A DNA stretch of 64,000 nt from Brucella sp. BE17 (GTDB lineage Bacteria; Pseudomonadota; Alphaproteobacteria; Rhizobiales; Rhizobiaceae). The notes beneath the pieces are model-generated. The model was given only the letters and a program-made list of their open reading frames with translations. It ran no database searches and had not been told where the DNA came from. Positions within the stretch are counted from its first letter, which is position 1; every line of letters starts with the position of its first letter. The translations under genes and the position numbers were made by a program. The stretch is from NCBI RefSeq assembly GCF_039545455.1, contig NZ_CP154468.1:434001-498000 (forward strand), given 5' to 3'. Below, one piece after another: positions 11,254 through 30,387 of the stretch.

Positions 11254-12177
11254 TCAGGAAGCGTTTTCCTGTAAGAGTTGCAATGTCTTGATAGCTGCCG
11301 CTGCACGGTTTTCTACACCGAGCTTGATATAAACTTGCTCCAGATGTTTGTTGACTGTTCGCGCGCTCAATCCCAGAATTTCGCCAATATCACGGTTGGA
11401 CTTTCCGCGCGCGATCCAGTGCAGAACATCGCTCTCGCGGGCTGTAAGGCCAAAGTGAAGCCGTAGCATATCAGCTTCGCCCGCCGCATTGACGGCAGTC
11501 AGACGGAACAGGAATTCATCCGCATTTGTTGCTCCGAGATATTGGATCTGAAGCGAGGCTGGTCCATTGACGGCGACTGTCGCCGGGCTTTGCCCCGTCT
11601 TCTCAGGCCTGTCAGGGGTTTGAAACCAGGCCTTGCATGTATCCTCAAGCACGGCCTGTCCATTGCCTGCATCAAGGACGCTTTCCACCAGGCGCATGGC
11701 CTGCGGTGTAGACCATAGAATTCGCCCTGCGCGATTGACGGCGAGAAGATGACGACCGCTTGCGTCGAGCGCGACACGAGCGCTTTGCACTGAGCGTGCA
11801 TTGGTAAGATGCACCTTTATGCGCGCGCGCAATTCATCGATATTGATGGGCTTGGTCAGATAATCGACGCCTCCCGCCTCAAGCGCCTGAACGATATGTT
11901 CCGTTTCAGTAAGGCCTGTCATGAAAATGATAGGTACCAGCGAGACTGCGGGATTGGCCTTCAGTTGGCGACAGGTCTCGAAACCATCCATGCCGGGCAT
12001 CACGGCGTCCATCAATATCATGTCGGGAGTGATGCGCTCGGCAATTCCGAGTGCTGCATTGCCCGATGTTGCAATCAGCACCGAATAATTGGCCAGTTCC
12101 AGCGCTTCGGTCAAAAAGCCGAGTGTCTGAGGTGAATCATCAACGATCAGAACCGTATCGCGTGAAATCCCGCTCAT
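11254..12177 (-). CDS. LuxR-type response regulator (REC-PAS-HTH)
   Basis: A 307-residue response regulator. The receiver domain occupies residues 8-120, with the acidic pair Asp13-Asp14, the phosphoacceptor Asp57 in MILMDAVMPGMDG and the lysine in YLTKPI. A PAS-like middle section (about 135-230; ALDASGRHLLAVNRAGRILW) links it to a C-terminal LuxR helix-turn-helix (243-300; LTARESDVLHWIARGKSNRD, then LSARTVNKHLEQVY). Its ATG overlaps the stop of the hybrid kinase gene (ATGA), so the two are a cognate pair. The pair is divergent from urtA and probably regulates urea uptake and urease. The middle PAS may bind a ligand or serve in dimerisation. Confidence 0.92.
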   Translation of the reverse strand: MSGISRDTVLIVDDSPQTLGFLTEALELANYSVLIATSGNAALGIAERITPDMILMDAVMPGMDGFETCRQLKANPAVSLVPIIFMTGLTETEHIVQALEAGGVDYLTKPINIDELRARIKVHLTNARSVQSARVALDASGRHLLAVNRAGRILWSTPQAMRLVESVLDAGNGQAVLEDTCKAWFQTPDRPEKTGQSPATVAVNGPASLQIQYLGATNADEFLFRLTAVNAAGEADMLRLHFGLTARESDVLHWIARGKSNRDIGEILGLSARTVNKHLEQVYIKLGVENRAAAAIKTLQLLQENAS

Positions 12178-15100
12178 GGCCGGATGCCCGCTTCGGCTTC
12201 GAGTTGACGCAGAAACATATCGAATCCTGACATATTGAAGGCACGAATATAATCGCGCGCGCTTTCGACAAAGGGAACGAGCTGCTCGTCCTGTGCAAGA
12301 ACGGCGAGCCTCGCCTCGATGCCACGCACATAGCCGATTTCGCTAAGGCGGATCAGGTCCTGCAAATCCGACAATGCCGGACTTTTGATGAATCTTGCCT
12401 TTTCTGTCGTCTTTTTTTCAACATTCTTATCGTAAATCCACTTCAGCCCAAGATGAAGCGCGAGTTTGGTGTGCAATTGCCTGAGATCGAAAGGTTTGCC
12501 CAGCGTGCCATTATGCGCATTGTCGGGCAATGGGTCGGACGGTGTTGCGTCGCCTATGTTGGCGGAGAGCATGATGATCGGAGCTTTCTCGCCTTTTTCG
12601 CGGAGCTTTGCCACCAGCTCCCAGCCATTCATCTGCGGCATGCGGATATCGATAAAATAAACGTCGGGTCGGATGCCGTCGACGAGTGTGAGGCATTCGG
12701 CACCGTTTTTGGCGGTCAACACGATGAAATCGAGCGGAGCCAGGATTTCGCGCATCAATGAGCAATGATCATCATTGTCGTCAACGATGATGATGGTACG
12801 GCGCGGTCCGCTATAGGCGATGATCTTTTGCGTGGGGGCTGCGAGATTGACCGGGCGATCGATGGCGCTGAGCATAAGGCGAACCTGAAAACGCGATCCT
12901 TTGCCATAGTGGCTTGTCAGCGACAGGTCGCCGCCCAGCGTATTGGTCAGCAATTTGGTGATGGTCAGGCCCAGGCCAAGGCCCGGCAGATGGCGCACAT
13001 ATTCGCCCTCACCGCGCTCGAATGGCTCGAATACGCGTTCTATGTCCTCATCCTTTATACCGCGTCCCGTATCCGTGATGCTGAAAGTCGCAACCTGATT
13101 GCGGTAGGCAACATCCAGCGCGACTTCGCCTTTTTCGGTGAACTTGATCGCATTGGAAAGAAGGTTGACCAGAATCTGCCGCAGGCGTTTCTCGTCGGTA
13201 CGCACATATTGCGGCAGACTTTTCGTCTTCTGATAGAGAAAGGCAATGCCCTTGGCTTCCGCCTGAGGCTTCAACATATCGACGATCTGATCGAGAAAAT
13301 CATGCAGGTTTATTTCGTTGGAATAAACCTGAAGATGCCCCGTTTCGATGCGGGAAATATCGAGCAGACCGTCAATCAGCCCTGAAAGATGATCAGCGCT
13401 GCGCCGGATGAGCTTTATCGATGGCTGGCGTGCTGGCGGAATGGTTTCGTCGCGCTCCAGTATCTGCGCATAGCCCAAAACTGCATTAAGCGGAGTGCGC
13501 AACTCATGGCTGAGGCCGACCACATAGCGGCTTTTGGCGCGGTTAGCGGCCTCCGCATTGTCCTTTGCTTTTTGCAGTGCCGCATCGGTCTGTCTGTGCG
13601 CGGCTATTTCCTTGAGCAAAAGCGTTGTCTGGCGCGAGGATTCCTCTTCCGCCACGATGCGGCTATCATGGGCCAGCACATAAAACCAGCACACGATGAC
13701 GGCAATTAGCGCCAGCACGAAGAACACGATGAGAATGGTGCGGTTGACGACCTGCGCTGTGTCCGGCGAAGAAGCGCCGGCATGATAGGCGACAATGGCG
13801 AGGATTGCGCCGAGAGCGGCCACCGAAAGACAGGCTGTTACGGCATAGCGGCCCAATCGTGTCGAGAGCTTTTTGATGAGAGCTGGTGGAAGCAGCGCCT
13901 CTACGACTTTTGCACCTTGTGCTTTGAGATTGGCTTTCGGTTTGCAGAGGTCGTGGCAGCGGCTGTCGAGCGAGCAGCAAAGCGAACAGATCGGTGCTGC
14001 ATAGGCCGGACACCACGCCATATCCTCCGGCTCGAACGCATGTTCGCAGACCGAGCAGGTAATAGTGCCTTTGCCTTGCCATGCGCGGCGGGGTTTACGC
14101 GCAAGATAATAGCGGCCTTTCGTCTTCCATGCGATAAGCGGTGAGACGAGGATGGCTACAAGTAACGCAATATAGGGTGCGAGTGCCGATGCCATGGAAC
14201 CGAATGCGCCGAAATGCGCCGAAAGCGCTGCAATGGACGATATGGCCATCGTGCCTGTCCCGACGGGATTGATGTCATAAAGATGGGCACGTTTGAATTC
14301 GATGCCGGGCGGTGACAGACCAAGACGCTTGTTGATGAAGAGATCGGCAGAAATCGTAGACAACCATGCCATGGCAACGAGCGAAAAAATACCGAGTGCC
14401 TGTTCGAGCACCTGATAGACGCCAAGCTGCATCAAGAGAAGGCCGATTGCGACATTGAACACCAGCCAGACCACGCGGCCAGGATGGCTATGGGTGATAC
14501 GCGAGAAGAAATTCGACCATGCCAATGACCCCGCATAGGCGTTCATCACATTGATCTTGAGCTGCGATACCACCACGAAGGCAGCGGTCAGAAGAAGGGC
14601 GACCGTAGGTGAGGAGATCATATAGCCAAAGGCAGTGAGATACATATGCGCCGGATCGGCGGCAACATCGGTTGAAACACCGGCGCTTAATGTCAGCACG
14701 ACCAGAAACGATCCCGCAAGCAGTTTTGGCGCGCCAAGCACCACCCAGCCGGGGCCTGCGAGAAAGACGGCAATCCTGTGACGCAATTTTGACTGACCTT
14801 GAGGGGGCAGAAACCGCAGGAAATCGACTTGCTCGCCGATCTGAGCCATCAGTGCCAGAATGACAGCCGAAGCCGCGCCGAACTGCGCCAGCACGAAAGG
14901 CGCGCGCTCGCCATCGGTAAAGCCGCCCGTGATACCAGTAAATGTGCGCCAGAGGTGAAATTTCTCCCAGTCGATCAGTGCGATGAAAATGAAGGGCAGG
15001 ATATTGAGCGCGATCCAGAAGGGCTGGGTTATGATCTGAAAGCGGCTGATCATGCGCACGCCATAAGTGACGAGCGGGATGACGACCACAGCACTGATGA

Positions 15101-15560
15101 CATAGCCCATCCACATGGGAATGCCGAAAGCGAGCTTGAGCGCACCCGACATGATGGAGGCTTCGATGGCAAACAGCAGAAAGGTGAAAGTCGCATAGAT
15201 CAGCGAGGTCACCGTTGATCCGATATAGCCAAAACTTGCGCCGCGCGTCAGAAGGTCGATGTCCACACCGTGGCGGATGGCGTAGCGGCTGATCGGTAGA
15301 CCGATGCCCAGCATGACCATGCTTGCAACGAGGATCGCGGCAATCGCATTGCTCGTACCATAGGAAAACGTGATCGCACCGCCGATAGCCTCCAACGCCA
15401 GAAAGGAAATCGCACCGATTGCCGTATGGGCGATGCGGTTGGATGAGAAACGGCGCGCGCTTTTGGCGGTGAAACGCAGTGCGTAATCCTCGAGCGTTTC
15501 ATCCGCGACCCAGCGGTTATAGTCCCGTCTTACAGGGATGATGCGTTGTCGCGCTGTCAT
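12174..15560 (-). CDS. NCS1-type permease fused to hybrid sensor histidine kinase
   Basis: An 1128-residue multi-domain membrane protein. Residues 25-480 form an NCS1 (nucleobase/allantoin/hydantoin symporter) domain with about 12 hydrophobic segments and hallmarks such as TRGASFGYIGS and QVDFLRFLPP. A cysteine-rich segment follows (Cys502, 505, 517, 525, 528, 529, 535, 539), then two further membrane helices (572-594, 607-629). The kinase has HisKA with His685 in SHELRTP, an HATPase with Asn803 and the glycine boxes DTGRGI and GLGLGL, a receiver with Asp971 in DIRMPQMNG, and a helical C-terminus. The transporter domain probably serves as sensor, as in the SLC5-type kinase CbrA. The ligand may be urea or a purine breakdown product; the adjacent urt-ure genes favour this but do not prove it. 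Confidence 0.93.
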   Translation of the reverse strand: MTARQRIIPVRRDYNRWVADETLEDYALRFTAKSARRFSSNRIAHTAIGAISFLALEAIGGAITFSYGTSNAIAAILVASMVMLGIGLPISRYAIRHGVDIDLLTRGASFGYIGSTVTSLIYATFTFLLFAIEASIMSGALKLAFGIPMWMGYVISAVVVIPLVTYGVRMISRFQIITQPFWIALNILPFIFIALIDWEKFHLWRTFTGITGGFTDGERAPFVLAQFGAASAVILALMAQIGEQVDFLRFLPPQGQSKLRHRIAVFLAGPGWVVLGAPKLLAGSFLVVLTLSAGVSTDVAADPAHMYLTAFGYMISSPTVALLLTAAFVVVSQLKINVMNAYAGSLAWSNFFSRITHSHPGRVVWLVFNVAIGLLLMQLGVYQVLEQALGIFSLVAMAWLSTISADLFINKRLGLSPPGIEFKRAHLYDINPVGTGTMAISSIAALSAHFGAFGSMASALAPYIALLVAILVSPLIAWKTKGRYYLARKPRRAWQGKGTITCSVCEHAFEPEDMAWCPAYAAPICSLCCSLDSRCHDLCKPKANLKAQGAKVVEALLPPALIKKLSTRLGRYAVTACLSVAALGAILAIVAYHAGASSPDTAQVVNRTILIVFFVLALIAVIVCWFYVLAHDSRIVAEEESSRQTTLLLKEIAAHRQTDAALQKAKDNAEAANRAKSRYVVGLSHELRTPLNAVLGYAQILERDETIPPARQPSIKLIRRSADHLSGLIDGLLDISRIETGHLQVYSNEINLHDFLDQIVDMLKPQAEAKGIAFLYQKTKSLPQYVRTDEKRLRQILVNLLSNAIKFTEKGEVALDVAYRNQVATFSITDTGRGIKDEDIERVFEPFERGEGEYVRHLPGLGLGLTITKLLTNTLGGDLSLTSHYGKGSRFQVRLMLSAIDRPVNLAAPTQKIIAYSGPRRTIIIVDDNDDHCSLMREILAPLDFIVLTAKNGAECLTLVDGIRPDVYFIDIRMPQMNGWELVAKLREKGEKAPIIMLSANIGDATPSDPLPDNAHNGTLGKPFDLRQLHTKLALHLGLKWIYDKNVEKKTTEKARFIKSPALSDLQDLIRLSEIGYVRGIEARLAVLAQDEQLVPFVESARDYIRAFNMSGFDMFLRQLEAEAGIRP

Positions 15561-15647: not shown

Positions 15648-15663
15648 TACGTCATTTGACGTA
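15648..15663. promoter_or_regulatory. Inverted repeat between the kinase gene and urtA, candidate operator
   Basis: TACGTCA and TGACGTA, perfect seven-base arms separated by TT, lie in the 178-base divergent region, about 75 bases before urtA and 88 bases before the kinase start. Symmetric sites of this size suit a dimeric LuxR-type regulator. A small CCCG-GAAAA-CGGG repeat follows at 15701-15713. Binding by the response regulator at 11254 is inference. Confidence 0.5.
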
Positions 15664-15738: not shown

Positions 15739-17034
15739 ATGACATTCCGGTCGCAGATGCTTGCCGCACTTTTTGCAAGTGCGCTCACCATTCCGAGCTT
15801 TACCAGCGCGTTGGCCGAAGAAGAGACGATCAAGGTCGGCATTCTTCATTCGCTGTCGGGCACGATGGCAATTTCAGAGACGACTCTCAAAGACGCCATG
15901 CTGATGCTCATCGAAGAGCAGAACAAGAAGGGCGGCATTCTGGGCAGGAAGCTCGAAGCCGTGGTCGTGGACCCAGCCTCCGACTGGCCGCTTTTTGCTG
16001 AAAAAGCGCGTCAGTTGATCTCACAGGACAAGGTTGCTGCCGTCTTCGGCTGCTGGACATCCGTCTCGCGTAAATCGGTGCTGCCGGTTTTCAAGGAATT
16101 GAACAATATATTGTTCTATCCGGTGCAATATGAGGGCGAAGAATCCGAGCGCAACGTCTTTTATACAGGTGCAGCACCAAACCAGCAGGCTATTCCCGCC
16201 GTCGACTACCTGATGGAAAATGAAGGTGTCGAGCGCTGGGTTCTGGAAGGCACAGACTATGTTTATCCGCGCACGACCAACAAGATTTTGGAAGCCTATC
16301 TGATTTCCAAGGGGGTAAAACCTGAAGATATCCGCGTCAATTATACGCCGTTCGGCTTCTCCGACTGGCAGACGGAAGTCGCAGCCATCAAGAGTTTTGG
16401 TGCGGCAGGCAAGAAGACCGCTGTAGTCTCGACCGTCAATGGCGACGCCAATGTCCCTTTCTATAAGGAGCTCGCCAATCAGGGTGTGAAGGCCGAGGAT
16501 ATTCCGGTCGTCGCCTTCTCGGTCGGCGAGGAAGAACTGGCCGGTATCGATACGGCACCGCTGGTCGGCCATCTTGCGGCATGGAACTATTTCCAGTCGG
16601 TGGATAATCCCGTCAATGCACAGTTTCTCGAAACCTGGCGTGCTTACACCAAGGATGACAAGCGCGTCACCAACGATCCGATGGAAGCCTCCTATATCGG
16701 CTTCAATATGTGGCTGAAGGCCGTGGAAAAAGCCGGAACCACCGATCCCGATGCGGTGATCGACGCGCTGGTCGGCGTCTCGGTTCCTAACCTTTCCGGG
16801 GGCTTCTCGGCAATGATGCCGAACCATCACATCACCAAGCCGGTGCTGATCGGTGAAATCCAGACGAATGGCCAGTTTGAAATCGTCAGCCAGACACCGG
16901 GGCTGATCGTCGGAGACGAATGGTCGGATTATCTGCCTGATTCAAAGAACCTGATTTCCGATTGGCGCGCGCCTATGTCCTGCGGCAATTTCAATGTCGA
17001 AACCGGCAAATGCGGCGGGCAAGGTGGCTCGTAA
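15739..17034 (+). CDS. urtA: Urea ABC transporter substrate-binding protein
   Basis: A 431-residue periplasmic protein with a signal peptide (FRSQMLAALFASALTIPSF, cleavage near SALAEE). The mature part starts TIKVGILHSLSGTMAISETT, and AVFGCWTSVSRKSVLPVFKE with FYPVQYEGEE is diagnostic of UrtA against other branched-chain amino acid type binding proteins. The C-terminus ends with a cysteine-containing MSCGNFNVETGKCGG. It captures urea for the UrtBC channel. First gene of the urt operon, divergent from the permease-kinase gene. It is followed by a GC-rich hairpin (17061) before urtB. Confidence 0.96.
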   Translation: MTFRSQMLAALFASALTIPSFTSALAEEETIKVGILHSLSGTMAISETTLKDAMLMLIEEQNKKGGILGRKLEAVVVDPASDWPLFAEKARQLISQDKVAAVFGCWTSVSRKSVLPVFKELNNILFYPVQYEGEESERNVFYTGAAPNQQAIPAVDYLMENEGVERWVLEGTDYVYPRTTNKILEAYLISKGVKPEDIRVNYTPFGFSDWQTEVAAIKSFGAAGKKTAVVSTVNGDANVPFYKELANQGVKAEDIPVVAFSVGEEELAGIDTAPLVGHLAAWNYFQSVDNPVNAQFLETWRAYTKDDKRVTNDPMEASYIGFNMWLKAVEKAGTTDPDAVIDALVGVSVPNLSGGFSAMMPNHHITKPVLIGEIQTNGQFEIVSQTPGLIVGDEWSDYLPDSKNLISDWRAPMSCGNFNVETGKCGGQGGS

Positions 17035-17093: not shown

Positions 17094-17126
17094 CTGATAA
17101 ATGCAACAGCTTTAAGGGTGCCACCT

Positions 17127-18743
17127 ATGGGACACCAAATCCGCGCAACATTTGTGCTTTTCTGCGTGATGTTCGCAAGCTTCATGGGGGCTGCCCGCGC
17201 TGCCGATGATTTTCAGGGGCTGGTCGATGCTGTGGGAAAAGCGAATTTTGTTCAGATGCAGGAGCGGATTTCAGCATTGGCAGCAACCGCTGACGCGCGT
17301 GCCGTTTCGGTGCTGAATGCGCTTGGCAGCGGCGATCTTTATATGCGTAAATCCGATGGTCGCGTCTTCATCAGCAGGGCATCGGGTGCAAATCTCAGCC
17401 TCATCGATCCGCTCAGTGGGGAGGCGGCAGGCATAGCCCCCAAGGGTGGTCTGGAGAAAGTCAAAGTCAACAATGCCGTTCGCCGTATCGTGCGCACGGC
17501 CTTGGGCGGCTTGACGCTGATGAGCCCCAACCGCGCAGAGCGGCTTCGCGCCGCGCAAACCGTGGCCGCAAACCCTGACCCCGACGCATTGCCATTGATC
17601 GAGGCAGCGCTTGAAAAAGAACAGGATGCCTCAATTAGGATATTGCTTGAAAAGGCGCAGGCCGCTTTGCTGCTTGTCTCCTCTCGACCGCTTGAAGCAA
17701 AACTCAAGGCAGCGCAATTTCTGACCGATCATGGCGACCGTTCCACACTATCCCTGTTGAATGCCGTACGCGCCAATGCGGAGCCAAAACTTGCCGCGGC
17801 ACTTGATGCTGCGATTGCCCATATCGAGCAAAGGCAGGCTTTCTGGGATGCTGGCCAGAACGTCTGGTATGGCCTGTCGCTCGGCTCGGTCCTGTTGCTG
17901 GCTGCTATCGGCCTTGCTATCACCTTTGGCGTCATGGGCATCATCAATATGGCGCATGGCGAGATGGTCATGCTCGGTGCCTATGTGACTTTCGTCGTCC
18001 AGGATGTAATCCGCAGCCATTATCCGGGTATCTTCGATTGGTCGCTTGCCATTGCGCTGCCGCTGGCCTTTCTTTTCACCGCCCTTGTAGGGCTGGTGAT
18101 CGAACGCGGCGTCATTCGCTTTCTTTATGGGCGTCCGCTTGAAACATTGCTTGCGACATGGGGGATTTCGCTGATCCTGCAACAGGGTGTGCGCTCGACC
18201 TTCGGGCCGACCAACCGTGAAGTCGGCAATCCATCATGGATGTCGGGTGCTTTTGAACTCGGTGGCATGACGATCACCTGGAACCGGCTCTGGATCATCG
18301 TGTTTTCATTGGCGGTATTTTTCACACTTCTGACGCTTTTGAAAAAATCGAATTTCGGCCTGCAAATGCGCGCCGTCACGCAAAATCGCCGCATGGCCTC
18401 CTCCATGGGCATCCGCACGCCTTATGTCGATGCGCTGACTTTTGCGCTCGGGTCCGGCATTGCCGGAATGGCCGGTGTGGCGCTGTCGCAGATCGACAAT
18501 GTCTCGCCCAATCTCGGACAAGGCTACATCATCGACAGCTTCATGGTGGTGGTGTTTGGCGGTGTCGGCAATCTCTGGGGCACGCTGGTCGGCGCCTTCT
18601 CGCTCGGCATTCTCAACAAGTTCCTTGAACCTTATGCGGGCGCGGTGCTGGGCAAGATTTTCGTGCTCGTGCTCATCATCCTTTTCATTCAAAGACGTCC
18701 GCGTGGTCTTTTCGCGCTCAAAGGCAGGGCGGTGGAAGCATGA
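17127..18743 (+). CDS. urtB: Urea ABC transporter permease UrtB
   Basis: A 538-residue protein of the long UrtB type. A signal-anchor (FVLFCVMFASFMGAARA) is followed by an extra N-terminal domain of about 220 residues rich in Ala and Leu with HEAT-like helices (residues 30-245). The branched-chain-type permease proper follows from about 250 (GLSLGSVLLLAAIGLAITFG, INMAHGEMVMLGAYV, FGGVGNLWGTLVGA). The ATG at 17127 was chosen because AAGGG lies eight bases upstream; a GTG at 17118 is in frame but overlaps that site. It forms the urea channel with UrtC, with which it overlaps by ATGA. Confidence 0.95.
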   Translation: MGHQIRATFVLFCVMFASFMGAARAADDFQGLVDAVGKANFVQMQERISALAATADARAVSVLNALGSGDLYMRKSDGRVFISRASGANLSLIDPLSGEAAGIAPKGGLEKVKVNNAVRRIVRTALGGLTLMSPNRAERLRAAQTVAANPDPDALPLIEAALEKEQDASIRILLEKAQAALLLVSSRPLEAKLKAAQFLTDHGDRSTLSLLNAVRANAEPKLAAALDAAIAHIEQRQAFWDAGQNVWYGLSLGSVLLLAAIGLAITFGVMGIINMAHGEMVMLGAYVTFVVQDVIRSHYPGIFDWSLAIALPLAFLFTALVGLVIERGVIRFLYGRPLETLLATWGISLILQQGVRSTFGPTNREVGNPSWMSGAFELGGMTITWNRLWIIVFSLAVFFTLLTLLKKSNFGLQMRAVTQNRRMASSMGIRTPYVDALTFALGSGIAGMAGVALSQIDNVSPNLGQGYIIDSFMVVVFGGVGNLWGTLVGAFSLGILNKFLEPYAGAVLGKIFVLVLIILFIQRRPRGLFALKGRAVEA

Positions 18744-19888
18744 TGACGGCTTTGTTTTTTCGCAGACTCGACCGCGGTGTCTTCATCTGTGTTGCCATGC
18801 TGATGGCCGTTGCCTTGATCGTGCCTGCTCTCAATCTGATGACATCATCTGATCATCCGCTGCATGTGCCGACCTATGTGGTGTCGCTGATGGGTAAATA
18901 TCTGACCTATGCCATCCTGGCCTTGGCGCTCGATCTGGTATGGGGTTTTTGTGGTATTCTTTCGCTCGGACATGCCGCCTTTTTCGCACTCGGCGGCTAT
19001 GCAATGGGCATGTATCTGGTGCGCCAGATCGGTGCACGCGGCGTTTATGGCAACCCAAATCTTCCGGATTTCATGGTTTTTCTTAACTGGAAGGAACTGC
19101 CTTGGTATTGGTTCGGCTTCGATCATTTCTGGTTTGCCGCCCTCATGGTGCTGCTGGTTCCTGGCCTGCTCGCTTTCATCTTCGGCTGGTTTGCCTTTCG
19201 CTCACGCGTGACCGGTGTTTATCTCTCCATCATCACGCAGGCCATGACCTACGCGCTGATGCTCGCCTTCTTCCGTAATGAGATGGGCTTTGGCGGCAAT
19301 AACGGCCTGACCGATTTCAAGGATATTCTGGGCTTCAACATCCAGTCATCCGGCACGCGTACAGCACTTTTTGCGGCTTCCGCGCTTCTGCTGGCGCTCG
19401 CGCTGATTTTAAGTTCTGCAATCGTCAAATCGAAATTCGGCAAGGTGCTGGTCAGTGTGCGCGATGCCGAAAGCCGCACGCGCTTTCTGGGTTACAGGCC
19501 GGAAAACTACAAGCTCTTCATTTTTACGCTTTCGGCGATGATGGCGGCGGTGGCAGGCGCACTTTATGTGCCGCAGGTCGGTATCATCAATCCGGGCGAA
19601 TTTGCGCCTGCCAATTCGATTGAAGTCGTCATATGGACGGCGGTAGGCGGGCGCGCGACACTGGTTGGGCCGGTCATTGGTGCCATTCTGGTCAATTTCG
19701 GCAAGAGCATTTTTACCACTGCCTTCCCGGAGATCTGGCTGTTTGCGCTGGGCGCATTGTTTGTGGCCGTAACACTTTTTCTGCCAAAAGGCATTGTCGG
19801 AACCTTTCGCTCCCTCATGGCTTCGCGCAGGTTCTTGAAGAAATCAGCTGCAGATGAACGGCAATTGCAAACGGCAGCGGCGGAGTGA
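18740..19888 (+). CDS. urtC: Urea ABC transporter permease UrtC
   Basis: A 382-residue LivM-type permease. Features include LALDLVWGFCGILSLGHAAF, a long insertion with YGNPNLPDFMVFLNWKELPW typical of UrtC, the EAA-like DAESRTRFLGYRPENYKLF and the C-terminal ETVIWTAVGGR-like segment (EVVIWTAVGGRATLVGPVIG). About nine hydrophobic segments. The start overlaps urtB (ATGATG, so 18740 or 18743), and the gene ends two bases before urtD. Partner of UrtB in the membrane channel. Confidence 0.95.
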   Translation: MMTALFFRRLDRGVFICVAMLMAVALIVPALNLMTSSDHPLHVPTYVVSLMGKYLTYAILALALDLVWGFCGILSLGHAAFFALGGYAMGMYLVRQIGARGVYGNPNLPDFMVFLNWKELPWYWFGFDHFWFAALMVLLVPGLLAFIFGWFAFRSRVTGVYLSIITQAMTYALMLAFFRNEMGFGGNNGLTDFKDILGFNIQSSGTRTALFAASALLLALALILSSAIVKSKFGKVLVSVRDAESRTRFLGYRPENYKLFIFTLSAMMAAVAGALYVPQVGIINPGEFAPANSIEVVIWTAVGGRATLVGPVIGAILVNFGKSIFTTAFPEIWLFALGALFVAVTLFLPKGIVGTFRSLMASRRFLKKSAADERQLQTAAAE

Positions 19889-27156: not shown

Positions 27157-28572
27157 GTGAAGCCATTCGATGAAATGCTCCATGCTGAAGAGGCTGGCGT
27201 TCGCGCGCCATACCGCTTTATCAAGCAGTGGCTCGACGGGCAGGATGCGAACAATCTTTTACAGAAGGCACAGGATGCGGAAAACGTTTTTCGCAAAACG
27301 GGCATAACATTTGCCGTCTACGGCGATGAAGAAGCAGCCGAGAGGCTCATTCCATTCGATATCATTCCGCGCATCATTTCAGGTCAGGAATGGCGAAAAC
27401 TCTCACAGGGTATCGAGCAGCGGGTCATGGCGCTCAATGCCTTTCTCGATGATATTTATCATCGGCAAGAGATCGTCCGCGCTGGACGTATTCCAAAAGA
27501 ACTGATCACCAATAACGAAGCCTTTTTGCCCGAAATGATTGGCTTTCGACCTCCGGGCAATGTCTATACCCATATTATCGGTGTGGATATCGTGCGCACG
27601 GCTGAAAACCAGTTCTATGTGCTCGAAGACAATGCGCGCACACCTTCCGGCGTTTCCTATATGCTGGAAAACCGTGAGACGATGATGCAGCTTTTTCCAG
27701 AGCTGTTTCAGAAGGTCAAGGTGCGCCCGGTCGAGAACTATCCGCAATTGCTGCGCCAGTCGTTGGCGCGTGTTGCACCGGCATCGGCAAACGGCACGCC
27801 GACAGTCGCTGTGCTGACGCCCGGCATTTATAATTCGGCCTATTTCGAGCATGCCTTTCTGGCTGATCAGATGGGTGTGGAACTGGTCGAAGGTAGCGAT
27901 CTGCGCGTGGTCGATGGCCGTGTCGCCATGCGCACCACGCAAGGTTATCGGGCAATCGATGTTCTTTACCGCCGTGTCGACGATGCCTATCTTGATCCGC
28001 TCACATTTCACCCGGATTCAACCCTTGGCGTTGCGGGTATCATGGATGTCTATCGCGCCGGCAATATCACCATCGCCAATGCACCGGGAACAGGCATTGC
28101 CGATGACAAGGCGATCTATTCCTATATGCCGGAGATTGTCGAATTCTATACCGGTCGCAAGGCCATCCTTGAAAATGTACCGACTTGGCGTTGCTCGGAG
28201 GCCGACAGTCTTGCCTATGTGCTCGACAATCTGGCCGATCTGGTTGTCAAGGAAGTACATGGCTCGGGTGGCTATGGCATGCTGGTCGGGCCTGCGGCGA
28301 CCAAGGCGGAGCGCGATACCTTTGCGCTCAAGCTCAAGGCACGTCCCGGCAATTATATCGCGCAACCGACACTGGCGCTTTCGACGACCCCCATATTCAC
28401 AGAAAAAGGGCTTGCGCCGCGCCATGTCGATCTCAGGCCCTTTGTGCTGGTGTCCGATCACATCCGCATCACACCGGGAGGCCTTACCCGCGTGGCGCTG
28501 AAAGAGGGATCGCTTGTCGTCAATTCCAGTCAAGGCGGCGGCACCAAGGACACCTGGGTTCTGGACGACTGA
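27157..28572 (+). CDS. Circularly permuted ATP-grasp type 2 protein (COG2308-like)
   Basis: A 471-residue protein of the family formerly called DUF404/DUF407. Conserved stretches include GITFAVYGDEEAAERLIPFD, IIPRIISGQEWRKLSQGIEQ, VYTHIIGVDIVRTAENQFYV, LEDNARTPSGVSYMLENRE and, near the end, VKEVHGSGGYGMLVGP, the ATP-binding loop. Members are predicted amide-bond-forming ligases. The start is a GTG at 27157 with AAGGGG six bases upstream. It opens a conserved four-gene set with an alpha-E protein, a transglutaminase-like protein and Anbu, proposed in the literature on amidoligases to make or modify a peptide. The real substrate is unknown. Confidence 0.9.
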   Translation: MKPFDEMLHAEEAGVRAPYRFIKQWLDGQDANNLLQKAQDAENVFRKTGITFAVYGDEEAAERLIPFDIIPRIISGQEWRKLSQGIEQRVMALNAFLDDIYHRQEIVRAGRIPKELITNNEAFLPEMIGFRPPGNVYTHIIGVDIVRTAENQFYVLEDNARTPSGVSYMLENRETMMQLFPELFQKVKVRPVENYPQLLRQSLARVAPASANGTPTVAVLTPGIYNSAYFEHAFLADQMGVELVEGSDLRVVDGRVAMRTTQGYRAIDVLYRRVDDAYLDPLTFHPDSTLGVAGIMDVYRAGNITIANAPGTGIADDKAIYSYMPEIVEFYTGRKAILENVPTWRCSEADSLAYVLDNLADLVVKEVHGSGGYGMLVGPAATKAERDTFALKLKARPGNYIAQPTLALSTTPIFTEKGLAPRHVDLRPFVLVSDHIRITPGGLTRVALKEGSLVVNSSQGGGTKDTWVLDD

Positions 28573-28638
28573 AGTTAACAACGAAGCAGCTTGTTGCAAC
28601 AGGCGCCAGAATTGGGCACGAAAAAGGGGAATGAATTC

Positions 28639-29580
28639 ATGCTTCTTGGCCGCACGGCAAATGGGCTTTACTGGATGTTTCGTTATATTGAGCGCGCGGA
28701 AAACATGGCGCGGCTTGTCGATGCGGGATTACGCATGGCGCTGACAAAAACCTCGGATGCGCCGGAAGAATGGTCGTCGGTCGTGGTGTCGGCTGGAGCA
28801 AGTCGGACATTTTCTGCCAAGTATGATGCTTATAATGCAGCCAATGTTGCGGATTTTCTGCTGCGGGACATGGAAAACCCCTCAAGCGTTATGTCCTGTT
28901 TCGAGAATGCGCGCTCTAATGGCCGCATGGTGCGCACCGCATTGACGCGGGAGGCCTGGGAAAGCATCAATGAATCATGGATGATTTTGAAAAAAGTGCT
29001 ACGCAAACCGCTTAACGAAGCTGATCTTCCAGCACTTCTCAATCATATCAAGCGCGAGACGGCGCTGATCTGCGGTGCCTTTCATGGCACCATGCTGCGC
29101 AATGAGATTTTTGATTTTGCAGGCCTTGGTACTTTCATCGAGCGGGCCGACAATACGGCGCGTATTCTCGATGTAAAATATTATGTCCTCCTGCCGTCCA
29201 TCTCCTATGTTGGAACGTCGATGGACAATTATCAATGGGAGTCTATCCTGCGTTCGGTCTCAGCCCATCGCTCTTATCGCTGGGTCTATGACGGCGATTA
29301 TCGTCCGGCACAGGTCGCAGATTATCTCATCCTCAATGAGCGCATGCCGCGCTCGCTCAATTTCTGCTATTCCAGCATCAATGCGCATCTCGGCTATCTG
29401 TCACGGGATTATGGGGCGAGCGCTATTTGCCACGACACCGCAGGCAAGACCTATGCGCTCCTCAAAGATCAGGACATCAATTCGGTGTTCGATATTGGCC
29501 TGCATGAGTTTCTCACTGACTTCATCGCTTGCAACAACCGCCTCGGAAACGAGATTGCTGAAACCTATAATTTTTATTGA
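28639..29580 (+). CDS. Alpha-E domain-containing protein (COG2307-like)
   Basis: A 313-residue, mostly helical protein. It starts LLGRTANGLYWMFRYIERAE and contains NMARLVDAGLRMALTKTSD, HGTMLRNEIFDFAGLGTFIE, RADNTARILDVKYYVLLPS and YRWVYDGDYRPAQVADYLIL, hallmarks of the alpha-E family (formerly DUF403). The start at 28639 follows an AGGGGA site; the frame upstream to 28591 is not family-like. No catalytic function is established. It always travels with the ATP-grasp and transglutaminase-like genes, as here, which suggests that it is a structural or carrier partner. Confidence 0.9.
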   Translation: MLLGRTANGLYWMFRYIERAENMARLVDAGLRMALTKTSDAPEEWSSVVVSAGASRTFSAKYDAYNAANVADFLLRDMENPSSVMSCFENARSNGRMVRTALTREAWESINESWMILKKVLRKPLNEADLPALLNHIKRETALICGAFHGTMLRNEIFDFAGLGTFIERADNTARILDVKYYVLLPSISYVGTSMDNYQWESILRSVSAHRSYRWVYDGDYRPAQVADYLILNERMPRSLNFCYSSINAHLGYLSRDYGASAICHDTAGKTYALLKDQDINSVFDIGLHEFLTDFIACNNRLGNEIAETYNFY

Positions 29581-29589
29581 GGGTCTCGT

Positions 29590-30387
29590 TTGCTGCTCAC
29601 CATATCTCACATTTCGCAATACGCTTATGATCAGCCGGTTGCTTATGCGCTGCAACGCCTGCGCCTGTTTCCTCAAAATGTGCCGGGCCAGACGGTCAGG
29701 CATTGGGAGGTCAGGATTGAGGGTGGTGAGCGTGAGGTCAGCTATGTGGACGGTTTCGGCAATCGCACGGAACTGGTACAGCATGCGCGCAATGCCAGCG
29801 AAATTATCATCACGGCAAGTGGCAGCGTTGAGGTGGAGGACCGCGCAGGTGTTCTCGGCCCTGTGTATAGTCAGGCACCTTTGTGGCTATTCGAGCGCGA
29901 AACAGCCTTGACCGCTCCGGGCGAACTTATTCGCGCTCTTGCCGATAAATGTGCGTCGCTTAATGAGCCGCTGGAGAAAATGCACACTCTTATGAATGCG
30001 GTTCATGAGGCCGTCACCTATATGCCGGGGGCAACGGATGTTTTCACCGATGCCGAAAGCGCATTGGCTGCCGGGCAGGGCGTGTGTCAGGATCACAGCC
30101 ATGTTTTCCTTGCGGCTGCGCGGCTTCTCAATATTCCGGCGCGTTATGTTTCCGGCTATCTGATGATGGAAGGTATTGAAGAACAGACGGCAAGCCATGC
30201 CTGGGCGGAAGCGCATGTAAGCGGACTTGGATGGGTGGGGTTTGATGCGGCCAATAATATCTGTCCCAATGATCGCTATGTTCGCATGGCGACAGGGCTT
30301 GATTATCGCGATGCGGCACCCGTTTCAGGTGTGCGTCTTGGCCAAGCATCGGAAATGCTTGCAGTTCAGATCAATGTCGGGCAGTGA
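29590..30387 (+). CDS. Transglutaminase-like family protein (COG1305 type)
   Basis: A 265-residue protein. The N-terminal domain (about 1-130) has the ISQYAYDQPVAYALQRLRLF pattern; the transglutaminase core follows with the catalytic Cys in AGQGVCQDHSHVFLAAARLL, His in TASHAWAEAHVSGLGWVGFD and an Asp in FDAANNICPNDRYVRMA. The Cys-His-Asp triad is therefore intact, so a protease or amide-transfer activity is possible. The start is a TTG at 29590 with GAGGG seven bases upstream. Third gene of the Anbu cluster; a 61-bp palindromic repeat separates it from anbu. Confidence 0.9.
   Translation: MLLTISHISQYAYDQPVAYALQRLRLFPQNVPGQTVRHWEVRIEGGEREVSYVDGFGNRTELVQHARNASEIIITASGSVEVEDRAGVLGPVYSQAPLWLFERETALTAPGELIRALADKCASLNEPLEKMHTLMNAVHEAVTYMPGATDVFTDAESALAAGQGVCQDHSHVFLAAARLLNIPARYVSGYLMMEGIEEQTASHAWAEAHVSGLGWVGFDAANNICPNDRYVRMATGLDYRDAAPVSGVRLGQASEMLAVQINVGQ

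Follow-up and report, generated by a model that had tools for sequence, protein, structure and literature searches.

A predicted two-component system with an NCS1-fold sensor domain beside the urea uptake and urease genes of Brucella sp. BE17

A 64,000-nucleotide stretch of Brucella sp. BE17 (contig NZ_CP154468.1, positions 434,001 to 498,000; hereafter the window) encodes, divergently from its urea transport genes, a hybrid sensor histidine kinase with a permease-like N-terminus and, immediately downstream, a LuxR-type response regulator. We propose, with a probability of roughly 0.7, that the pair constitutes an NCS1-fold transceptor-type two-component system for urea and short amides that regulates urt/ure or formamidase/amidase operons. 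The features behind this proposal are seen in the sequence: the fold (by model), the order of the domains, the pairing of the two genes, their neighbourhood and the conservation of an operator-like repeat. The parts of the pair are as follows.

12174..15560, minus strand: hybrid sensor histidine kinase of 1128 amino acids with an NCS1-type N-terminus; intact frame
14091..15503, minus strand: NCS1-fold permease-like domain, residues ~20-490
13941..14063, minus strand: four-Cys zinc-ribbon-like linker, residues ~500-540 (C502, C505, C525, C528), from alignments; putatively metal-binding
13641..13859, minus strand: two further helices, residues ~568-640, running into the kinase helix in the model; probably transmembrane, as judged from the sequence
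13338..13535, minus strand: HisKA domain, residues 676-741 (Pfam), His685 confirmed
12870..13199, minus strand: HATPase_c domain, residues 788-897 (Pfam)
12462..12794, minus strand: receiver domain, residues 923-1033 (Pfam), Asp971 confirmed
11254..12177, minus strand: response regulator with a receiver (Asp57) and a LuxR/GerE helix-turn-helix (Pfam)

The initial annotation had described a single frame joining an NCS1-type permease to a hybrid kinase (His685, Asp971), a LuxR-type regulator gene overlapping its end, and a divergent urtABCDE-ure cluster, all of which was borne out. The HisKA histidine, the HATPase_c domain and the receiver aspartate of a hybrid histidine kinase lie in one chain, the receiver and GerE domains make the second protein a LuxR/NarL-type response regulator, and its gene start overlaps the kinase stop by 4 nucleotides. 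No PAS domain is found among the Pfam domains of the kinase. STAC is likewise absent from the Pfam listing to E 10, the presence of a STAC model in the library being unconfirmed, and the region concerned consists of the Cys4 motif and two helices. The same annotation had assigned residues 1-490 to NCS1. The kinase protein has no match to Pfam PF02133, yet profile and fold both place the domain as NCS1-like: hhalign aligned it at E 2.5e-26 with an NCS1 set that includes CodB, its relatives P0281 and L130 pass the PF02133 cut-off, and the predicted model of the domain has a LeuT-type fold with CodB and Mhp1 as best fold matches. An SLC5 (SSS) identity was ruled out by fold and profile. A PDB sequence-profile search with the clade alignment returned no transporter, its eight rows (E 0.1 or worse) being mostly zinc-finger proteins that match the Cys part.

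The substrate and cation sites of this domain depart from those of known NCS1 transporters. CodB binds sodium through backbone atoms of transmembrane helices (TM) 1 and 8 and the hydroxyls of Thr278 and Thr279, and holds cytosine between Trp108 (TM3) and Phe204 (TM6) (PMC9379551); E. coli CodB numbering was tied to the P. vulgaris CodB of that paper by motif. MAFFT and hhalign concur in placing Lys335 and Ile336 of the sensor at Thr278 and Thr279. The sensor has no Na2 site with TM8 Thr/Ser hydroxyls; the first of these positions is Thr or Ser in 13 of 31 NCS1 sequences, so this hydroxyl is not universal in NCS1. CodB Asn280, which we read as the Mhp1 Asn318 position, is retained as Asn337, and Glu133 corresponds to Mhp1 Gln121, four residues past the TM3 Trp. 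The aromatics that sandwich the base in NCS1 proteins (TM3 Trp, TM6 Phe/Trp) were not found in the sensor: Trp108 is replaced by Leu129 (Phe in many relatives), and the TM6 aromatic by Leu237 or Ile234, two alignments differing here by a shift of three residues with the aromatic missing under either. Among 468 distinct clade sequences (identical aligned sequences removed; 111 are short or partial fusion proteins), Lys335, Ile336 and Asn337 are invariant and Glu133 varies once; E133, E243, Q244, K335, N337 and N340 are each kept in at least 466, in kinase fusions and stand-alone permeases alike. The TM3 aromatic is Trp in 24 of the 31 NCS1 sequences and Phe in the others, as against Trp in 0 of the 468, all of which have Leu or Phe. 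The outlier L130 has Arg-Ile-Asn instead of Lys335-Ile336-Asn337. From the invariant lysine at a sodium-ligand position of CodB, we infer that the domain may depend on protons rather than on sodium. Residue 129 was also considered as a marker of urea versus amide neighbourhoods, with Phe in 54/54 amide-linked fusions, and was dropped: urease-linked fusions are mixed (24 Leu, 6 Phe) and Leu tracks kinship.

Since NCS1 members carry nucleobases and hydantoins (PMC9379551), and annotations of the stand-alone sister clade read cytosine or allantoin permease, the domain might be thought to sense a nucleobase or a purine breakdown product such as allantoin or urate, with the urea genes induced since urea is the end product. 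We consider this quite improbable in view of the lost TM3 and TM6 aromatics and of the neighbouring genes, which serve urea or short amides and include formamidase and amidase loci that have no urease close by. In the six contexts read, no gene of purine or allantoin catabolism is annotated, the plasmid gene tables among them being incomplete. Allantoin, urate and cytosine were rejected as first-choice ligands on these two lines of evidence. Of the ligands put forward by the initial annotation, urea is favoured by the neighbourhood, now together with the short-chain amides formamide and acetamide, and allantoin, uric acid and cytosine are not.

In the window, the kinase gene is separated by 178 base pairs (bp) from the start of urtA, the first of the following genes.

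15739..17034, plus strand: urtA, urea ABC transporter substrate-binding protein (TIGR03407, 553.2 bits; cut-off 492.75)
17118..18743, plus strand: urtB (TIGR03409, 430.2 bits; cut-off 250.3)
18740..19888, plus strand: urtC, matching the annotated urtC of L001
19854..20642, plus strand: urtD, matching the annotated urtD of L001
20648..21343, plus strand: urtE, matching the annotated urtE of L001
21394..27013, plus strand: urease cluster ureD-A-J-B-C-E-F-G; D, A, B, C, E and G match annotated urease genes of L003, F and J are named by position and sequence

This arrangement recurs across the phylum. In a sample of 299 genomes the permease-like domain occurs in 38, at 43 places, all of whose surroundings were inspected (the window, G000, included; neighbourhood rows filtered at 33-36% identity and 35-50% coverage). 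Thirty-three places, the window among them, have a divergent urtA, accompanied by fmdA in 27 and by amiE in 14; at five others urease genes are adjacent and urtA is not divergent (L118, L123, L125, L126, L128), and two have fmdA and amiS (L121, L124). The remainder are two places cut by contig ends (L129, L139) and a distant stand-alone outlier (L130). All 40 testable sensors are thus tied to urea (urt/ure) or short-amide (fmdA/amiE/amiS) genes, and the sensor loci contain urt, ure, fmdA, amiE or amiS/UreI. UrtA scored above its cut-off in 36 of 38 sensor genomes versus 56 of 261 others (p 5e-19, kinship ignored). Within the genus, the sensor is present in 5 of 24 genomes, exactly the five with UrtA above cut-off, and the two stand side by side. 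Genomes with two fusions divide the roles: in G225, G246 and G158 one lies by ure and the other by urt-fmdA, and in G091 one lies by urt-fmdA and the other by fmdA-amiS. Among the 80 loci nearest the window, urtA is present in 77, two of the rest (L046, L054) starting at a contig end and one (L048) being without urtA; these loci (L008-L087) are biased to near kin because they are the best 80 of 526 relatives. Annotations of the S. meliloti pSymB, Klebsiella, Paraburkholderia, Methylobacterium and Paracoccus plasmids concur. The N-terminal domain matches 527 plasmid records, 342 of them from Klebsiella (~53% identity in those listed); in one of the latter, L002, the sensor lies opposite urtABCDE and a formamidase gene.

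The link between the pair and urt-ure control drawn by the initial annotation is further backed by a conserved predicted operator in the divergent intergenic region.

15648..15663, no strand, between the divergent genes: TACGTCATTTGACGTA, inverted repeat TACGTCA-N2-TGACGTA, predicted operator of the response regulator

The window palindrome is the perfect form of the repeat and lies 76 bp before urtA (median ~100 bp in relatives). It is the one perfect copy in the 3.9-Mb genome and the sole one with fewer than 2 mismatches, the next best having 2. By word counting, 80 of the 93 non-redundant regions upstream of urtA contain TACG-N8-CGTA, where shuffled sequences would be expected to give 0.375, and the consensus of the urtA upstream sites is an inverted repeat like TACGTCA-N2-TGACGTA. 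Among 115 regions upstream of a sensor-linked urtA (77 from L008-L087, 32 from L118-L159, five from plasmids and the window), 102 contain the word; these are not independent cases because the sources overlap, L017 and L136 for instance being on contigs of equal length. It also occurs upstream of 2 of 40 control urtA genes that have no sensor adjacent, in regions of 1051 bases each versus 218-490 in the test set; of these two, L204 is a good palindrome and belongs to G225, which has a urease-type sensor, and L231 is a poor match. The pattern was chosen as the most enriched among many gapped patterns, and the test set itself supplied the weight matrix; the 40 control regions, the single genomic match and sites on other contigs are independent of that choice. 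Where sensor and urtA are over 1 kb apart (32 loci), 31 loci have the site 86-108 bp ahead of urtA and one, which has both, has it ahead of the sensor, so the site tracks the target and not the sensor. Two genomes whose sensors have no urt neighbour carry sites on contigs other than that of the sensor. In G528, a porin-like gene and urtABCDE are preceded by a perfect site, and ureDABC by one with a single mismatch; in G463, a site with 2 mismatches and an intact TACG-N8-CGTA core precedes a porin-like gene followed by urtABCDE-ureDA. The palindrome is likely the operator of the co-encoded regulator.

The porin-like gene that separates the operator from urtA in these two genomes encodes ~390 amino acids by eye (L272:7527-8717, L275:6983-8143); the Methylophilus fmd cluster is reported to include a comparable amide/urea porin (PMC10781810). 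A variant palindrome (TACGCC...CGTA-like) stands before urtA at L123:15072 and L204:316, in two genomes with urease-type sensors, and may be the operator of the urease-type sub-class.

Several observations weigh against the proposal. In the class of G193, probably Gammaproteobacteria, 321 genomes yielded 17 fusions, of which nine are linked (two already in the phylum sample), one is cut off and seven are unlinked, so that among the 16 testable fusions, seven have no urt/ure/fmd genes next to them in the DNA examined, two of these (L242, L254) having one side ended by the contig. Among the six genomes of the unlinked fusions, G472 and G570 lack UrtA at E 1e-60, and the UrtA contig of G371 has no operator site within 2 mismatches. 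One G472 copy (L241:6849-10520) adjoins a CbbR-like regulator and RuBisCO-like genes, named by eye. A third site in G528, with 1 mismatch, is in an unrelated location, and separate contigs, there and in G463, are no proof of distance. The motif was not found in several urease-type loci (L118, L125, L126 and L128, and also L007 and L122) or in the short fmdA/amiS-type loci L004, L121 and L124. The S. meliloti orthologue, SMb20609, appears in the accessible part of its source solely as a PhaR-regulated, functionally uncharacterised gene (PMC12542648). Finally, sensing might take place in the linker of the kinase and not in its permease part. The claim that the pair is conserved beside urt holds for the phylum sample and in part for the class of G193. 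We also note that the genome of L241 has a second copy (L245) without a urt/ure/fmd neighbour.

The unlinked copies, the patchy distribution in the genus and the presence on plasmids could mean that the pair regulates unrelated genes and merely travels with urt on mobile DNA. An operator that follows urtA and not the sensor gene, and that marks urt/ure operons on other contigs, argues otherwise, and we regard this reading as very improbable.

Stand-alone relatives bear on what the domain recognizes. The sister clade comprises permeases of ~535 amino acids with the same core and four-Cys tail and no kinase; in a quick tree without bootstrap, the fusions form one clade (SH-like approximate likelihood-ratio support 91, under the 95 mark) and the stand-alones another (98). 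A stand-alone permease adjoins ureEFG-J-DABC on an Acinetobacter plasmid, directly follows the urease genes in K. pneumoniae and G606, and in Arthrobacter neighbours the gene of an aliphatic amidase. The sensor-regulator pair of G592 (L239) lies opposite a stand-alone permease-fmdA-fmdB-like-amiE array, with the operator TACGTCGGATGACGTA between them; as the permease occupies the place of urtABCDE elsewhere, it stands in for Urt. This arrangement, within five loci that are not a survey, is the best hint that the clade may carry urea or short amides. The permeases at L160:9001-10608, L003:11950-13557, L161:7941-9617 and L240 (~9.1 kb), all by urease or amidase genes, are annotated as cytosine permease or hypothetical protein where annotated; they are probably misannotated and are candidate urea/amide permeases. 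The distant NCS1 member at L130:9449-10942 (26-28% identity, Arg at the Lys335 position) neighbours a carbon-nitrogen hydrolase, an AmiC-like binding protein and an AmiR-like ANTAR protein.

Such relatives raise the question of whether the sensor is mainly a urea/amide importer with the kinase as a flux read-out, as may hold for CbrA, which transports histidine, driven by the proton motive force, with a lysine (K196) in its Na2 site (PMC13022988). This account overlaps with the one we prefer and differs from it on the need for transport. The lysine at the CodB Thr278 position and the stand-alone permeases beside urease and amidase genes fit it, but a urea ABC importer is encoded next door, because of which transport by the sensor may be vestigial; we view it as a tentative and rather doubtful option.

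A further possibility is that the domain does not sense a ligand at all, the kinase reading nitrogen or carbon status, redox or zinc through its Cys-rich linker while the permease part anchors or transports. The four linker cysteines show little or no variation across 59 aligned sequences, and S. meliloti offers two further points in favour: a PhaR site is reported at pSymB 1622073 for SMb20609 (PMC12542648), mapping just upstream of the S. meliloti 1021 orthologue in the pSymB record, and a tolC mutant shows a strong decrease in SMb20602-20605 together with genes for nitrate transport (PMC2912261). From their position and the labels of these papers, SMb20602-20605 would be the urt genes and SMb20610 the regulator. 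Against this stand the core residues of the permease domain, whose near-complete conservation suits a working binding site, and the occurrence of the four-Cys motif in stand-alone permeases, because of which it is not specific to signalling. We judge linker sensing unlikely. SMb20605 has also been detected at pH 7.0 and not at 6.1 (PMC4941405), and the S. meliloti operator TACGTCATTCTACGTA precedes urtA.

In the model that we prefer, ligand sensing by the permease fold, the module would bind urea and, in relatives, also formamide or acetamide. Binding would alter its conformation, and the Cys-rich linker and the two extra helices would relay the change to the kinase. Phosphate would then pass from His685 to Asp971 and on to the co-encoded LuxR-type regulator, which in its phosphorylated form would bind TACGTCA-N2-TGACGTA before urtA and switch on urea uptake, with urease switched on via the same operon or a second site; relatives would apply the same logic to formamidase/amidase operons. 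The identity of the ligand, its transport and activation as the sign of control are inferred here, the order of phosphotransfer and the sign being borrowed from CrbS/R, RpuS/R and general knowledge.

A scan of the kinase-urtA intergenic region for sigma-70 promoters and terminators returned nothing. Urease alpha was detected in the genome, and a second, weak match with an internal stop lies elsewhere in it, at G000:C1:432697-432843. In the window, downstream of ureG, are open reading frames of 471 (27157-28572), 329 (28591-29580) and 265 (29590-30387) amino acids, which we take to resemble an ATP-grasp/alpha-E/transglutaminase-like trio.

The general design, a transporter-like sensor with a LuxR-type regulator and a repeat operator, is already known from SLC5/STAC kinases; what is new here is NCS1 in place of SLC5, a different linker, and urea/amides in place of carbon acids or histidine. 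Like the Pseudomonas CbrA (SLC5-STAC-PAS), the sensor fuses a transporter fold to a histidine kinase tied to nutrient use (PMC13022988), and a lysine replaces the Na2 sodium, K196 in CbrA and, by prediction, K335 here, a striking parallel if the alignment holds. Unlike CbrA, with its SLC5, STAC and PAS domains, it has a Cys4 linker, two helices, a receiver and a different predicted ligand class. In CrbS/CrbR and RpuS/RpuR, a transporter-domain kinase and its regulator likewise run the uptake and use genes of one small molecule via a promoter repeat; CrbR is of the LuxR family, and the ACTU motif is an imperfect inverted repeat (PMC5715377, PMC9100948). CrbS and RpuS are SLC5/STAC sensors of acetate and pyruvate, whereas the NCS1-type sensor is tied to urea/amide genes, and RpuR uses a direct repeat in contrast to the inverted repeat of the NCS1-type system. 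CodB and Mhp1, the closest in fold, differ in lacking the Lys335/Ile336 replacement and the fused kinase and in their TM3 and TM6 aromatics. Short-chain amide operons are also governed by AmiC/AmiR and an fmdB-type putative regulator (PMC13209695). AmiC resembles UrtA, and the AmiC-like protein of L130 matches UrtA; AmiR acts by antitermination, as opposed to a two-component phosphorelay, and the P. veronii fmdA-amiE-urt cluster is reported to be without amiC/amiR (PMC13209695). Amide operons are induced by formamide and urea, and the review describing them, in its accessible part, names a putative regulator and no sensor (PMC10781810). In the accessible parts of the open-access literature, with subscription papers outside its scope, our search found no description of an NCS1-kinase fusion or of this operator.

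Two features are surprising, the proposed NCS1 urea/amide clade and the clean predicted operator, and they make the question directly testable: the family offers a sensor, a regulator and a predicted operator for urea/amide operons that can be tested in S. meliloti. If the proposal is true, NCS1 would be one more of the few transporter folds that are fused to kinases, and one with a CbrA-like change of lysine for sodium. The findings also suggest that cytosine/allantoin permease labels beside urease are wrong and that such permeases mark a new urea/amide permease clade. On a broader view, to which we give even odds, NCS1 would contain an unrecognized urea/short-amide clade, proton-coupled via a lysine in the sodium site, whose stand-alone members in Klebsiella, Acinetobacter and Arthrobacter would be new urea/amide permeases and from which a single fusion event would have given rise to a widespread sensor kinase governing urea/amide use via a defined operator.

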